Shown here one piece after another: positions 26,582 to 48,960 of a DNA stretch of 64,000 nt. Source of the stretch: Phoenicibacter congonensis (lineage in GTDB: Bacteria; Actinomycetota; Coriobacteriia; Coriobacteriales; Eggerthellaceae); assembly GCF_900169485.1 (NCBI RefSeq), contig NZ_LT821227.1:62001-126000 (forward strand), written 5' to 3'. Both the position numbers and the translations under genes were made by a program. Numbering within the stretch: the stretch's first letter is position 1; each line of letters begins with the position of its first letter. The notes beneath the pieces are model-generated. The model ran no database searches. It saw nothing but the letters and a program-made list of their open reading frames with translations, and had not been told where the DNA came from.

Positions 26582-26854
26582 AAGTCTGACATGTTTTTAA
26601 AATAAAAAATTTTGCATTCACTTGCAAGTCTGACCTGATATTAAAATTTTAAATTTATGTCAGACTTAAAAATTAAACACCTCAAAATCAAAGCCTGACA
26701 TGCTTTTCAAATCTCATAAACCGCTGCCGACCTCACGATTCTCTAATCAACAAACGAAGTCTGACACCAAAAATGAAATTTAAAATTTATGTCAGACTTA
26801 AAAATTCAAGAATTATGTTCAATTTAACATTGAAGTCTGACATGCATTTTAAAT
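26582..26854. repeat. Cluster of dispersed repeat copies between nagB and nagA
   Basis: This fills most of the 349-nt nagB-nagA gap, which has no gene. Five units start at 26582, 26626, 26691, 26757 and 26833. Three are single copies of AAGTCTGACATG followed by an A/T tail (the 26691 copy has AAGCCTGAC). Two (26626-26667 and 26757-26799) are inverted pairs, each a near-palindrome of 42-43 nt bounded by AAGTCTGAC and GTCAGACTT. The 26626 palindrome pairs at 17 of 21 positions. In the nagB-nagA transcript the palindromes would form long A/U stems. Confidence 0.85.
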
Positions 26855-30585: not shown

Positions 30586-32253
30586 TTAACTAGCAAATTC
30601 CTTCAAATGGGCTCGAAGCTCACCGACTGAATAAAGACTCCCAAAGCAAACAATGACACTTTGGGTGTCTTTTTTTGTGGCTTCATGCACAGCGCATTTA
30701 AGCGCGGCGTCAAGTGCCCCTCTTGCATTAGAAGTTTCGTGGGTAACGCCATATTCAAAAGTCAAGGCCGACAAATCATCTGCGGGAAGTTTTCTTGGAT
30801 TGTTGGGTTCATAGACATAAAACTCGTCAATCAAATCACCAACATTTTCAAGAATGCCACGTGCGTCTTTATCTTTTAGAACTCCCATTACAGCGATGAT
30901 TTTTACATTTTTCAAACATATGTCAGACTTGTGCGTTTGATCGAAATCTGCTGTGTCGACTTTGAGGTCTGACATGTTTTGAAAATCTACATTATTCAAG
31001 TCTGACATGATTTGCAAATTCTGTTCTTGTTTACAAAAAACACGGTTTTTAAGGGCTTTTGTAACATCAAGAAGCGAATCACGAAGAGCAGCTGCTCCAT
31101 CAGGGTTATGCGCACCGTCAACAAATACAAGGCAAGGAAGCCCGCACGAAAAAAGCTCAAAACGACCTGGCCAAGTTGCATTTTCGATGCCAGCTTGAAT
31201 TTTGCTCTCATCTATGCCCAAAGCGAAGGCTGCTTCAATTGCAACTGCTGCATTTTCTGGCTGATAGGCACCAAGAAGTTGAGTGTAATAGCTTTTGTTT
31301 CTGTATAAAAAACTTCTAGTGGCATTAAACGAACAATGGAAGTAAGAGTTGCATTCACAGGATTTATTTGTTCCAGAAACAAATTGTAAATTGCAATTAT
31401 TTTCTGAGTCACACACATGCGCCAAGTTTGAGAGGCGATCTGCATCGATGCTAGAAAAAGGCTCAACCGAACTAGTTAAATAATTTCTGCGGTGCGAATG
31501 ATCAAAAACAACATCTTCACAATCACATTCAGAAAAGACAGGTTCGTTTTGTCTACAGCACATTAAAAGACCGCCCTGTCGCAAGGAGGCTTTGTCAACA
31601 TAGATTATTTCTGAGTTTGTTTTATTGGCAACTTTTTCAATTGCAAGTCTGGCTTCTTCTGTTTGTTGATCGACAACAACTCGAACACCAGGCTTAATTA
31701 TTCCCGCTTTCTCATATGCAATTTTTTCAAGAGTGTCACCAAGAATTGCTGTGTGATCCAGGCCAATTTTTGTTATTACAGAAAGCAAAGGGGTTATCAC
31801 ATTCGTAGAATCAAGACGTCCCCCAAGACCAACTTCGACCACACAAATGTCGCACATCTGTTGGAAGAAATAGACAAACGCAACTGCCGTCATCAACTCA
31901 AATTCCGTCGGATGCTCTCCAAGTTGATTCTCAACTTGGAGAGCTTTTTCTTTCACCAAAAGAGTAATTTTCGTGAGATTGTTGATATCAATATCTTCAT
32001 TGTTCACGCGGATGCGCTCTTCGAAGTGATCAATGTAGGGTGATGTGAATAAACCTGTTTTTAGGCCACCCTCTCTTAAAATTGCATCAAGATAGGCACA
32101 AACTGAACCCTTGCCATTAGTTCCTGCAACATGAACAAACTTAAGTTGGTTCTGTGGGTTCCCAAGAAGCTCAAGTAATAGTTCAATCCGAGAAAGCCCA
32201 AGCGAAACCTTTTGCCATCTTGGCTCGTTGATGTAGGCTATTGGATCAAACAT
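30586..32253 (-). CDS. folC: Folylpolyglutamate/dihydrofolate synthase with large insertions
   Basis: 555 residues, well above the usual 420-440. Adds glutamate to folate (and possibly makes dihydrofolate). The P-loop HVAGTNGKGSVCAYL (about 41-55), FTSPYIDHFEERIRVN, EVGLGGRLDSTNV and GLDHTAILGDT are intact, as is VFVDGAHNPDGA in the C-terminal domain. Two segments are extra: a Cys/Asn/Ser-rich one at about 215-325, and one at about 400-450 that contains three copies of the dispersed repeat (peptides IMSDL, NMSDL, KSDI). Both are in frame. It overlaps alr by 8 nt, so the two are coupled. The enzyme is probably functional, since all core motifs remain. Confidence 0.9.
   Translation of the reverse strand: MFDPIAYINEPRWQKVSLGLSRIELLLELLGNPQNQLKFVHVAGTNGKGSVCAYLDAILREGGLKTGLFTSPYIDHFEERIRVNNEDIDINNLTKITLLVKEKALQVENQLGEHPTEFELMTAVAFVYFFQQMCDICVVEVGLGGRLDSTNVITPLLSVITKIGLDHTAILGDTLEKIAYEKAGIIKPGVRVVVDQQTEEARLAIEKVANKTNSEIIYVDKASLRQGGLLMCCRQNEPVFSECDCEDVVFDHSHRRNYLTSSVEPFSSIDADRLSNLAHVCDSENNCNLQFVSGTNKSCECNSYFHCSFNATRSFLYRNKSYYTQLLGAYQPENAAVAIEAAFALGIDESKIQAGIENATWPGRFELFSCGLPCLVFVDGAHNPDGAAALRDSLLDVTKALKNRVFCKQEQNLQIMSDLNNVDFQNMSDLKVDTADFDQTHKSDICLKNVKIIAVMGVLKDKDARGILENVGDLIDEFYVYEPNNPRKLPADDLSALTFEYGVTHETSNARGALDAALKCAVHEATKKDTQSVIVCFGSLYSVGELRAHLKEFAS
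30907..31019. repeat. Three dispersed repeat copies inside folC
   Basis: Copies at 30907-30930 (ends GTCAGACTT), 30965-30986 (AGGTCTGACATG) and 30998-31019 (AAGTCTGACATGATTT). The last two have the same orientation and lie 33 nt apart, a multiple of three. In the FolC frame they read QNMSDL and LQIMSDL; the first, in opposite orientation, reads KSDICL. Confidence 0.85.
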
Positions 32254-36735: not shown

Positions 36736-37944
36736 CTACATTGAATATCGCAAAGTCGAAGAAACAGTGTGAACTATAGAGTTTTCAATTGCCTCCTTCG
36801 TAGGTTCCTGCCCAATTCCTGGCAAATCGGGAACTTTATATCTACCATGAACAGGCTGATAGTCATAAATGCAACTCTCGCGACTCTCTTTCCCGAGGGC
36901 ACGTTGGTGATGTTCGTGGATCAAGAAGTTAGGAATAGCTGCCTCTAACTGCAAAGCTGCTGCCTTTGAAATTGGACTTCCACAAACATGTGCCTGAACA
37001 TTACAATCATAAACTTGGCCCATTTCTGCTATCTTTTTAGCTTCTGAAATTCCACCGCATGTGCAAAGATCAGGCTGTAAAACTTTGAGAGAGTGATTCT
37101 CGAAGAAATTGCGGTATCCAAAACGAGTATAAATTCGCTCCCCTGAAGCAAGCGGAATAGAAGTGTTTTCTGCAACGATCTGCATCATGTCTGAATTCAA
37201 AGGATGCACAGGTTCTTCCATATAGAAAATCCGAAGAGGCTCGAGAGCATGTGCAAGTTGAATTGCAGAAGTTGTGTCGGTGTTTGAATGAAGCTCAATG
37301 ATGATATCAATGTCATCACCGCCAGCCTCTCTCATTGCAGCAACACGATTGACCACCTCATTTAGAACCTGATTTGTGAGAGGCCCCCTGCGATTCCATT
37401 CAATGCCTGTCTTTGGGACTGCGAAAGGATCAACCTTTAAAGCATCGTAGCCATCCTCTATAATCGCGGTCGTGACTTCAGCATATTGCTTGACGTCAGA
37501 AAGTCGACCCACAGGATATTTATCACCCCAGCCATATTGCAACTGTGAGGCATAAACCCTCAAATCGTCATTTTGTTTCCCGCCCAATAACTCATAGACA
37601 GGAACGTTCAAGGCTTTACCTTTTATGTCATAAAGAGCAACATCAATGGCGCTCATTGCTGCGCTTACGACGGTTCCACCGCCCATTCCCCAAAAAGTCT
37701 CGCGAAATAACTTGTTCCAAATCATGTCAGACTTAAAAGGATCGAGCCCAATAACCACTTCTGCAAAATCGCAAACCATTCCAAATCCGCCGCGCCAACC
37801 TTTTCCATAGGCTAGACCAACTTCGCCATAACCAGAAATGCCTTCATCTGTGTTAACCCGAACAATGACAGGACTCCAGGCTCCACGAGTTGCACCAGCA
37901 TTCCCGCTTTTAATTTGCATCACATCTACACTTGTAATTTTCAT
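36736..37944 (-). CDS. Enolase-superfamily (mandelate racemase/galactonate dehydratase-like) enzyme
   Basis: 402 residues. The N-terminal capping domain, then a TIM barrel with metal ligands at IIIELHSNTD, FYMEEPV and SGERIYTR, and a His in QAHVCGSPIS. These are features of the sugar-acid dehydratase subgroup (galactonate, gluconate, mannonate types), which turn an aldonate into a 2-keto-3-deoxy acid. The start is ATG 37942-37944 with GGAGG upstream, not the longer frame to 37995. Residues about 93-99 (KSDMIWN) are encoded by a stretch identical over 16 nt to the dispersed repeat. Substrate unknown; operon context suggests an imported acid. Confidence 0.85.
   Translation of the reverse strand: MKITSVDVMQIKSGNAGATRGAWSPVIVRVNTDEGISGYGEVGLAYGKGWRGGFGMVCDFAEVVIGLDPFKSDMIWNKLFRETFWGMGGGTVVSAAMSAIDVALYDIKGKALNVPVYELLGGKQNDDLRVYASQLQYGWGDKYPVGRLSDVKQYAEVTTAIIEDGYDALKVDPFAVPKTGIEWNRRGPLTNQVLNEVVNRVAAMREAGGDDIDIIIELHSNTDTTSAIQLAHALEPLRIFYMEEPVHPLNSDMMQIVAENTSIPLASGERIYTRFGYRNFFENHSLKVLQPDLCTCGGISEAKKIAEMGQVYDCNVQAHVCGSPISKAAALQLEAAIPNFLIHEHHQRALGKESRESCIYDYQPVHGRYKVPDLPGIGQEPTKEAIENSIVHTVSSTLRYSM
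37714..37734. repeat. Match to the dispersed repeat inside the enolase-superfamily gene
   Basis: Sixteen nt, AAATCATGTCAGACTT, are identical to the repeat core; the flanking tail differs. In gene direction it reads AAG TCT GAC ATG ATT (KSDMI), the only open frame of that orientation. The protein has normal length here, so this is not an obvious insertion. Confidence 0.5.
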
Positions 37945-46459: not shown

Positions 46460-46735
46460 CTATAAAGCCTCTAGCCGGGAGTTGTTCCCCATTTGCACAT
46501 AGAACGCTTTCTCATCCTGCCACAAAAAATGAGGTTTACCCGAAATCATCACAGTGTAGCGATAGCCATAACCGCCGCATTTGAGCGAGGGAGCATAGCG
46601 TCTTTCAGTCACGCGATCTATGCGGAACCTTCGCCCCGAATCAAGAATTATCTCGAGTGGCGTAATCGTGCCCTCATCGCTGAAATGAGCGATGACTTCT
46701 ACATAGCATTTTCCGTTTTGATCAACTTCTCCCAT
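46460..46735 (-). CDS. Small hypothetical protein
   Basis: 91 residues, beta-rich, no membrane segment. Features are IAHFSDEGTITPLEIILDSG and YRYTVMISGKPHFLWQDEKA. The spacing of Arg/Trp/Tyr resembles small proteins of unknown function found in Gram-positives; no family is named. It starts inside the end of the TatD-like gene (37-nt overlap) and precedes thiN by 9 nt, so it is part of that operon. Confidence 0.6.
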   Translation of the reverse strand: MGEVDQNGKCYVEVIAHFSDEGTITPLEIILDSGRRFRIDRVTERRYAPSLKCGGYGYRYTVMISGKPHFLWQDEKAFYVQMGNNSRLEAL

Positions 46736-47865
46736 AACTGAATTATAGCCTCTAACTCGTCAGCGACTGCGAGCGTCTCGCCCTCTTTTCGTGGGAGATC
46801 AGTCTCAAACAGAAGATGTTCAGAGCCAATTTGGCGCGCAATTTCTGCCCCATTTTTTGTAGCGAGCATGCGGGGGTTCACAGAAAACAAACAGCCGTCT
46901 TTTTTGCATCGCTTTAAAGTTTCAAAATCGTCATTAAACCAGTGATAAATTACAATGCAATTTTCTAGACAGCCCGAACTTTTTAGAATTTCATGCGTCA
47001 ATCCGTTCGTTTTGCAAGAATGCACAGAGATGATTCGTAAATTGTTGCAAAACGCTAACGCTGAATTTACTGAGTTAGCATCTGATAACAAAACGTCTGT
47101 TGACTGGCAGGGAAGGTTTTGGGTAGTTGCACTTTGAATAGGCGATTTATGGACTGTTTCATTCTGTGGATGTGCTTTGTTAGGAGTTGCGCTCTCAAAA
47201 TTTGCTCCGTGAGCGTCTAAGTTTTGATTATGCGTGTTTTCAAAAGGTGCGCTTGCGACAGCAGAACAAACAGTTTTAAACACCTCAATCTGGCTTTCCT
47301 TCTCCCTTTCAGAAAAACGTTTAGAAAAATCAAGTCCAATTTCTCCAACAAACTGAGTTTCTTCCAAGCATTTACAAAACAAGTCAGACTTAAAATTTTG
47401 CGAGTACCACGGGTGAGCGCCAACACCAATTTTTACTTTGCTAAAACTTTTAAAATTTAAGTCTGACATGATTTTTAAATCATCTTTTGCCTGTTCAGGA
47501 GCACTGTCTTTTAAATCCAAGTCAGACTTACTTTGTAAATTTTTCCTTTGGCTCTCATGTTGCAACCAGCCACCACACAAAGCTTCACCACGGAAGTCTG
47601 ACATGATTTTTAAATTTGGTGTCTCGCAAGCAAAAGCGAAATTGTTATACAAATCGTTAAGCTCGCATTCAATGGAAGCTAATCGTTCTTTTAAAAACAA
47701 AAACTCTTCGGGAGAAATTGTGTTTGCAAAAACGTGCAGATTTGATTGTTGGAGCTCTTTAAGATAGTCGGCAAGATTAGGCACCCAAGCTAGATGCATA
47801 TGTGCATCGAAGCAATTTACACTTACACCTATGCCGTTTAGTACTATTTCTTTATTTTTGTGCAA
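46699..47865 (-). CDS. TatD-family metal-dependent hydrolase carrying repeat insertions
   Basis: 388 residues; typical TatD proteins have about 260. Metal ligands and motifs: CFDAHMHLAW (about 18-27), GVGAHPWYS, FVGEIGLDFS, ISVHS, YHWF and LLFETDLP. TatD enzymes act as DNases or deoxyribonuclease-like hydrolases. Residues about 84-166 contain four copies of the dispersed repeat, giving NLKIMSDF, SKSDLDLK, DLKIMSDL and FKSDLF. A second addition (about 195-258) is rich in Asn, Gln, His and Thr. Start is TTG with AGG 4 nt upstream. It overlaps tcdA by 14 nt. The core looks intact. Confidence 0.8.
   Translation of the reverse strand: MHKNKEIVLNGIGVSVNCFDAHMHLAWVPNLADYLKELQQSNLHVFANTISPEEFLFLKERLASIECELNDLYNNFAFACETPNLKIMSDFRGEALCGGWLQHESQRKNLQSKSDLDLKDSAPEQAKDDLKIMSDLNFKSFSKVKIGVGAHPWYSQNFKSDLFCKCLEETQFVGEIGLDFSKRFSEREKESQIEVFKTVCSAVASAPFENTHNQNLDAHGANFESATPNKAHPQNETVHKSPIQSATTQNLPCQSTDVLLSDANSVNSALAFCNNLRIISVHSCKTNGLTHEILKSSGCLENCIVIYHWFNDDFETLKRCKKDGCLFSVNPRMLATKNGAEIARQIGSEHLLFETDLPRKEGETLAVADELEAIIQLWEKLIKTENAM
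47370..47615. repeat. Four dispersed repeat copies inside the TatD-like gene
   Basis: Copies at 47370-47391, 47459-47480, 47508-47529 and 47594-47615. The second and fourth are identical over 22 nt (AAGTCTGACATGATTT plus tail) and lie 135 nt apart; the first and third are in the other orientation and 138 nt apart. Both distances are multiples of three. Confidence 0.9.
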
Positions 47866-48867: not shown

Positions 48868-48960
48868 ATGTCTGACATGATTTTTAAATATTTTACAAAG
48901 TAAGTCTGACTTGTTTTGTAAATATATATTCAAATGAAGTCTGACACTAGTTTTTAAAAC
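48868..48960. repeat. Three dispersed repeat copies upstream of tcdA
   Basis: Copies at 48868-48889 (ATGTCTGACATGATTT plus tail), 48902-48923 (AAGTCTGACTTG) and 48937-48960 (AAGTCTGAC). Spacings of 34 and 35 nt are not multiples of three. They fill most of the gap between yigZ and tcdA and are all in one orientation. Confidence 0.85.

Follow-up and report, generated by a model that had tools for sequence, protein, structure and literature searches.

The window analyzed here, a 64,000-nucleotide stretch of the genome of the gut bacterium Phoenicibacter congonensis (G000:C1:62001-126000; contig of 1,447,956 bp, 1.45-Mb genome), carries on its minus strand a folC gene (NCBIfam folC TIGR01499 match for the ORF at 30586-32253, E=1e-103) whose nearest named relatives in an alignment-based search belong to the Eggerthellaceae, and inside this gene are three copies of a 22-bp motif, referred to here as family A. 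An initial annotation made from the sequence alone had placed three repeat copies in FolC residues about 412-449, encoding QIMSDL, QNMSDL and KSDI; we find them at 30909-31019, where they encode LQIMSDLN, FQNMSDLK and HKSDIC, and the spacing of 33 nt that it gave for the two direct copies (starting at 30965 and 30998) is exact. The relevant features are as follows, in window coordinates; positions given in kb further below are those of the contig.

30586-32253, minus strand: folC (bifunctional dihydrofolate/folylpolyglutamate synthase), the host gene, 555 aa
30907-31023, minus strand: extra FolC segment, residues 411-449 (39 aa), holding all three copies
30909-30930, minus strand: family-A copy in folC, 18/22 against the consensus, encoding KSDICLK
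30965-30986, plus strand (antisense to folC): family-A copy in folC, 20/22, encoding FQNMSDLK
30998-31019, plus strand (antisense to folC): family-A copy in folC, 21/22, encoding LQIMSDLN
26582-26854: intergenic family-A array, copies at 26582 (+), 26626 (+), 26646 (-), 26691 (+), 26778 (-) and 26833 (+)
37713-37734, minus strand: family-A copy in a galactonate-dehydratase-like gene, 19/22, core 12/12, aligning without indel to its 83%-identical same-genus ortholog
47370-47615: five family-A copies in a TatD/QatD-like ORF, at 47370 (-), 47459 (+), 47508 (-), 47519 (+) and 47594 (+), up to 22/22
48868-48958: intergenic family-A copies, at 48868 (+), 48891 (-), 48902 (+) and 48937 (+)

The 39-residue segment at 411-449 is missing in alignment from the same-genus FolC and from the other aligned orthologs of the family, with the exception of L094, whose FolC bears an unrelated expansion of its own in the same loop. 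Conserved FolC motifs flank the segment on both sides, as the initial annotation had stated for motifs of the catalytic core. An AlphaFold2 model (alignment of 10 sequences, mean pLDDT 76) agrees in structure comparison with solved FolC folds, and its pLDDT falls below 50 at residues 235-308, 405-414 and 416-447; because of these low values in the segment and the fit of the model to solved FolC, structure prediction, which had been proposed as the check, supports the guess of an unstructured loop. A second and longer FolC expansion (residues ~225-312, window 31318-31581) is likewise disordered and is rich in Cys, Asn and Ser. A search of residues ~235-308 for the family-A repeat found none, the best score of 13/22 being at the level of chance, and since this second expansion has no repeat, loop expansion by itself is non-diagnostic.

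The family-A consensus, built from 76 sites in the genome stretches read (about 40% of the genome, the remainder being covered by pattern search), reads AAGTCTGACATGwTTTkTAAAT and has an AT-rich upstream flank; single copies form no stable hairpin and show no stronger folding than shuffled sequences. At a score of at least 17/22 the consensus has 118 matches in 306 kb, of which 31 fall in 0-206 kb and the other 87 in 310-410 kb, and none in four other 20-kb blocks; the reversed consensus gives 0 matches and shuffled consensuses give 0-3. Within the window, GTCTGACATG with at most one mismatch occurs 18 times against 3.6 expected, a count reached by 0 of 100 shuffles, and its exact form occurs 57 times genome-wide (control 0), nearly always at 88-180 and 330-375 kb; family A overall is almost confined to 85-180 and 330-375 kb. 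A chance origin of the copies is ruled out by the shuffles, the reversed and shuffled consensuses and the control motifs. Among 59 relatives, including the same genus, none holds more than two copies of exact AGTCTGACATG. Roughly half of all scored copies are inside ORFs, preferentially in the frames that give LQNMSDL or FKSDMFCK, with seven in KsgA/RsmA, six in TatD, five each in the TatD/QatD-like protein and GluQRS, four each in an M16C peptidase and an M28-like peptidase, three each in FolC and a radical-SAM protein, and one in MurE. The TatD-family ORF of the window (46699-47865, minus strand, 388 aa; nearest NCBIfam model QatD, below its cut-off) contains long low-complexity insertions and is possibly decaying.

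The 330-375 kb family-A cluster has a frameshifted RAYT-like gene, at 349.8 kb, at its center. Repeats that belong to RAYTs would be expected around the other RAYTs too, and this holds: every RAYT that we found, intact or broken, lies within or beside a local motif cloud, and the eight RAYT genes or remnants besides that at 349.8 kb are in or at the edge of clouds of related, mostly paralog-specific motifs. Pfam Y1_Tnp has eight genomic matches above its gathering score, and a ninth, broken copy at 1378.5-1379.3 kb was recovered by tblastn after its GTCTGACCCC cloud had been found. NCBIfam NF047646 (REP_Tyr_transpos) is the best family for all those tested, yet the intact ones reach only 64-70 bits, under the cut-off of 80, so that RAYT-like is the safe name. 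By eye, the intact paralogs hold an HUH motif (NHIHA) and a Y---NP motif (YIFNNP), and they have a C-terminal extension of ~100 aa, in which a Pfam search relaxed to E<=10 recovers neither DnaA_C nor an HTH domain. From their length, this extension and the GGGG-type motif, rather than from a tree, we judge these RAYTs to be group 1.

The RAYT at 595.5 kb has a TTTATGGYTGGCACCATTG cloud at 579-613 kb; GGYTGGCACC is present there in 82 copies in 40 kb, and the 13-mer TATGGYTGGCACC has 52 of its 53 exact genome-wide occurrences at 579.1-613.1 kb, at most 18 kb from the RAYT (control 0). This gene (L183, G000:C1:595058-595825) has a single in-frame stop, located where its paralogs have the catalytic tyrosine, and no other cloud counted is as large as its own (~99 copies). 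The RAYTs at 989 and 1422 kb (96% identical) have TGACTGGCACC/GTCTGGCACC clouds and those at 1351 and 1399 kb (97% identical) GTCTGGCACC clouds, the motifs of the two pairs overlapping; the RAYT at 1012.9 kb has a CCTGGCACC cloud, and the pseudogene at 1378.9 kb is the one with the GTCTGACCCC cloud. For the RAYT clipped by the contig end (1447.7 kb), only a few motifs are present in the adjoining 11 kb read; since the contig stops inside this gene (G000:C1:1447732-1447956), the circular genome was probably broken at a repeated RAYT gene. Paralog motifs are absent from blocks remote from RAYTs. Three cloud-bearing RAYTs are broken by frameshift or stop (349.8, 595.5 and 1378.9 kb), so an intact protein cannot be what their clouds depend on today. 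In the 85-180 kb cloud, to which the folC copies belong, tblastn finds no RAYT remnant, and this cloud may therefore have lost its RAYT or been displaced by an origin-centered rearrangement. This cloud, at 85-182 kb, roughly mirrors that at 330-375 kb about dnaA (259 kb), as would fit an origin-centered inversion.

In a same-genus sister species (G001; assembly 84% complete, with 5% contamination), comparison at syntenic places shows that RAYT and cloud appear and disappear together at a locus in this one species pair. The place of the 349.8-kb RAYT is there a 98-bp intergenic gap with no RAYT, and family-A matches over the syntenic stretch number 22 in P. congonensis versus 2 in G001, with 18, 17, 9 and 5 versus 0 at four other syntenic stretches; around a RAYT of the sister species' own, ACCTCCGTCCC occurs 28 times versus 0 at the syntenic place in P. 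congonensis. The sister species has two RAYTs, one ringed by ~30 copies of ACCTCCGTCCCC in 13.9 kb, often 33 bp apart, and the other with nine copies of CTCTGACACC around it. A 3743-aa ORF adjoining a RAYT (L222, G001:C141) contains in-frame VISDTSEN repeats that correspond to the motif of that RAYT, CTCTGACACC, several of them 33 bp apart. Among more distant relatives, clouds are found at some RAYTs (G040, G035 and, more weakly, G004), and some RAYT loci have no obvious cloud. The RAYT neighborhood in G040 (L231) holds nested palindromic TGTCTCATT/GTCTGAC pairs, and that in G035 (L238) 21-bp tandem arrays of GGGGACATACATG. A genome from another family of the order (G055), with one RAYT, has 63 exact GTCTGRCMCC sites, nearly all of them GTCTGACCCC, dispersed genome-wide in contrast to the local clouds of P. 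congonensis.

With dnaA at 259.4 kb and the GC skew switching near 1015 kb, six clouds located on both replichores are oriented opposite to the fork in all or most of their copies (42/42 at 989 kb, 35/35 at 1351 kb, 24/24 at 1399 kb, 34/37 at 1422 kb, 25/28 at 1012.9 kb and 71/99 at 595.5 kb), where copies of one array are not independent counts. The same bias was sought in family A (27/69 and 11/18) and in the 1378.9-kb family (11/21), and none was found. Transcription is not the cause of the orientation at 1399 kb, because 18 of the 24 copies there are sense to the nearest gene, and fork and RAYT orientation are inseparable, because all RAYT genes run with the fork. Together, confinement to 10-25 kb and fork-opposed orientation point to a cis-acting, replication-linked process.

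Codon alignments of orthologs from P. congonensis and the sister species, with 56.6 kb of gap-free aligned coding DNA, bear on how the copies entered genes. Multi-copy segments are net additions in FolC, the radical-SAM protein, GluQRS and part of KsgA, and genes with at least two copies differ in length from their orthologs by +119, +145, +56, +7, 0 and +51 aa, versus a median difference of 0 for copy-free orthologs (n=41). Single copies are mostly present without insertion, and the motif lies free of indels on native sequence in RsmA/KsgA, the galactonate-dehydratase-like protein, MurE and the M16C peptidase. In KsgA, TATTTACAAAACATGTCAGACTTAAAT (22/22) occupies the site of the relative's TATCTTCAAATCATGCCTGCGCTTGAA, with no length variation among 25 aligned sequences; the M16C peptidase carries four copies with no gap (969 vs 969 aa), and for one of these copies the relative already has near-motif sequence. 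GluQRS also carries gap-free copies. The gap-free alignment as a whole yields 19 gains versus 1 loss, whereas 13 control motifs show 0 gains; conservation around a few of these gains (TatD, M28-like) is poor, which makes the lack of gaps weak evidence there. Identity between the species within gap-free copies is 12.75 of 22, versus 15.5 of 22 in the flanks, a weakly significant difference (P=0.02). Many coding copies thus appear, as judged from the alignments, to have replaced pre-existing gene sequence in place and not to be insertions. The earlier view of an insertion tolerated in a loop stands for the FolC segment but fails as a general rule, given the indel-free copies elsewhere. Pure insertion as the origin of the gap-free copies is ruled out by the indel-free alignments (KsgA, M16C and the 56.6-kb set).

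The association of motif clouds with RAYTs is strong. Lagging-strand single-stranded DNA is the known substrate of IS200/IS605-type Y1 HUH transposases, and in E. coli the REPs are cut by the RAYT. As the simplest explanation, and a reasonably probable one, we propose that the RAYTs, as HUH nucleases, spread their own motif locally via lagging-strand ssDNA. Under such a mechanism, each RAYT would recognize its own ~20-bp motif, and copies would multiply in cis, ~10-25 kb around the RAYT gene, on the single-stranded lagging-strand template; we infer catalysis by the RAYT, the cis limit and the ssDNA route. Copies might be established by two routes: in the first, a copy and spacer DNA would be added into unconstrained sequence (intergenic arrays, or disordered loops such as FolC 411-449), and in the second, a copy would be written in place with length unchanged, often onto motif-like sequence. 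Purifying selection would then leave only those coding copies that lie in a frame and position tolerated by the protein. Less probably, RAYT-like HUH nucleases may write their motif into nearby DNA in this second way only, by short templated replacement of near-cognate lagging-template ssDNA without insertion, each RAYT thereby building a domain-sized cloud across genes and intergenic DNA. A REPIN that is copied into a gene is usually assumed to destroy it (PMC8049555); if copies are truly written in place, a short sequence can spread through essential genes without insertion. The dense clouds at every RAYT found make the function of these domesticated transposases directly testable.

Among other explanations, the one that survives best, though we think it unlikely, is that the motifs are functional binding sites made by selection and point mutation around a RAYT or a DNA-organizing host protein, with no copying involved, a mode of accumulation paralleled by matS sites and DNA uptake sequences. 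It would accommodate the presence of copies in and between genes and on both strands, a core that is seen in the sequence to be nearly palindromic (AAGTC-T-GACTT), and gap-free gains, some of them from near-cognate sequence, as 5 of 20 G001 windows scoring 15/22 became motif in P. congonensis. The MurE copy, however, stands in place of 22 nt that in the relative score only 7/22, most clouds are strictly one-way, the multi-copy segments are net additions with spacers (39 aa in FolC), and an extra reason would be needed for confinement within 18 kb of a RAYT. Point-mutation selection accounts for gap-free copies, then, but not for added segments or strict orientation.

We regard as improbable that family A is a plain insertion element like the Rickettsia palindromic elements, a mobile repeat kept in frame and tolerated in loops. 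Such an element would explain the gain of a copy-holding segment by each of FolC (where it is predicted to be disordered), the radical-SAM protein, GluQRS and KsgA, but it is at odds with the indel-free copies in KsgA, MurE, the galactonate-dehydratase-like protein, GluQRS and M16C, and with a strictly regional unit of ~22 bp that lacks a stable hairpin. No better are the prospects of the RAYTs as passengers, their genes landing or persisting in regions already rich in motif: the motif-dense 85-180 kb region without a RAYT favors this reading, but neither RAYT nor motif is present at the syntenic locus of the sister species, and distinct paralogs have distinct motifs. A genome-wide signal of the DNA-uptake or Chi-like type, in spite of a short non-palindromic repeat with an AT-rich tract that is placed in coding sequence in preferred frames, is barely credible when family A is absent from the sampled 805, 1075 and 1290 kb blocks and from 0-80 kb. 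A DNA uptake sequence is ruled out by the regional, non-genome-wide distribution.

Local spread of a RAYT's own motif, the reading that we prefer, has partial parallels in several known systems. Rickettsia palindromic elements similarly extend housekeeping proteins in frame where this is tolerated, and the FolC, radical-SAM, GluQRS and KsgA segments are lengthenings of that type, whereas the gap-free copies are not; those elements are long palindromes with a CGTC tag, whereas here we see RAYT-linked copies of ~22 bp and gap-free overlays. The DNA uptake sequences of Neisseria and Haemophilus are, like family A, short in-gene motifs present in place and in preferred frames, but are genome-wide, whereas the motifs here are regional around RAYTs and differ per region. 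With the REP/REPIN-RAYT systems of E. coli and Pseudomonas the likeness extends to short non-autonomous repeats, a family of their own for each Y1 transposase, and direct and inverted pairs; here, however, the consensus has no GTAG/GGAG foot and no stable hairpin, and in contrast to dispersed, extragenic REPs the clouds lie within 10-25 kb and include many coding copies, some of them indel-free. REPs inside genes are known and have been interpreted as loop insertions (PMC3733652, PMC6006769). In the literature that we searched, mostly without subscription papers, neither local paralog-specific clouds nor gap-free coding copies were found, and searching for the motif letters returned no relevant paper.

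Like the proteins described here, those of TIRYT/RAYT group 1/TnpA-Y1 subclass 2.1 are Y1 HUH proteins, ~256 aa long and extended at the C-terminus. According to the TIRYT paper, GGGGWSAS occurs in terminal inverted repeats, repeat families are moderate and most REPs are genome-wide (PMC3733652). The published consensus GGGGWSAS is matched by GGGGTCAGAC at 1378.9 kb and in part by GGTGCCAGAC, but not by CATGTCAGAC of family A. In contrast to terminal inverted repeats, the copies have the same orientation on both sides of the RAYT at 989, 1351, 1399 and 1422 kb, and the repeats here are local, come in tens per gene and vary from paralog to paralog. A survey of Y1 proteins did not find REP-like sequences near subclass 2.1 (PMC6006769); group-1 RAYTs lack identified REP-like repeats in that survey, and the RAYTs found here, judged to be of that group, sit in or beside dense local clouds.
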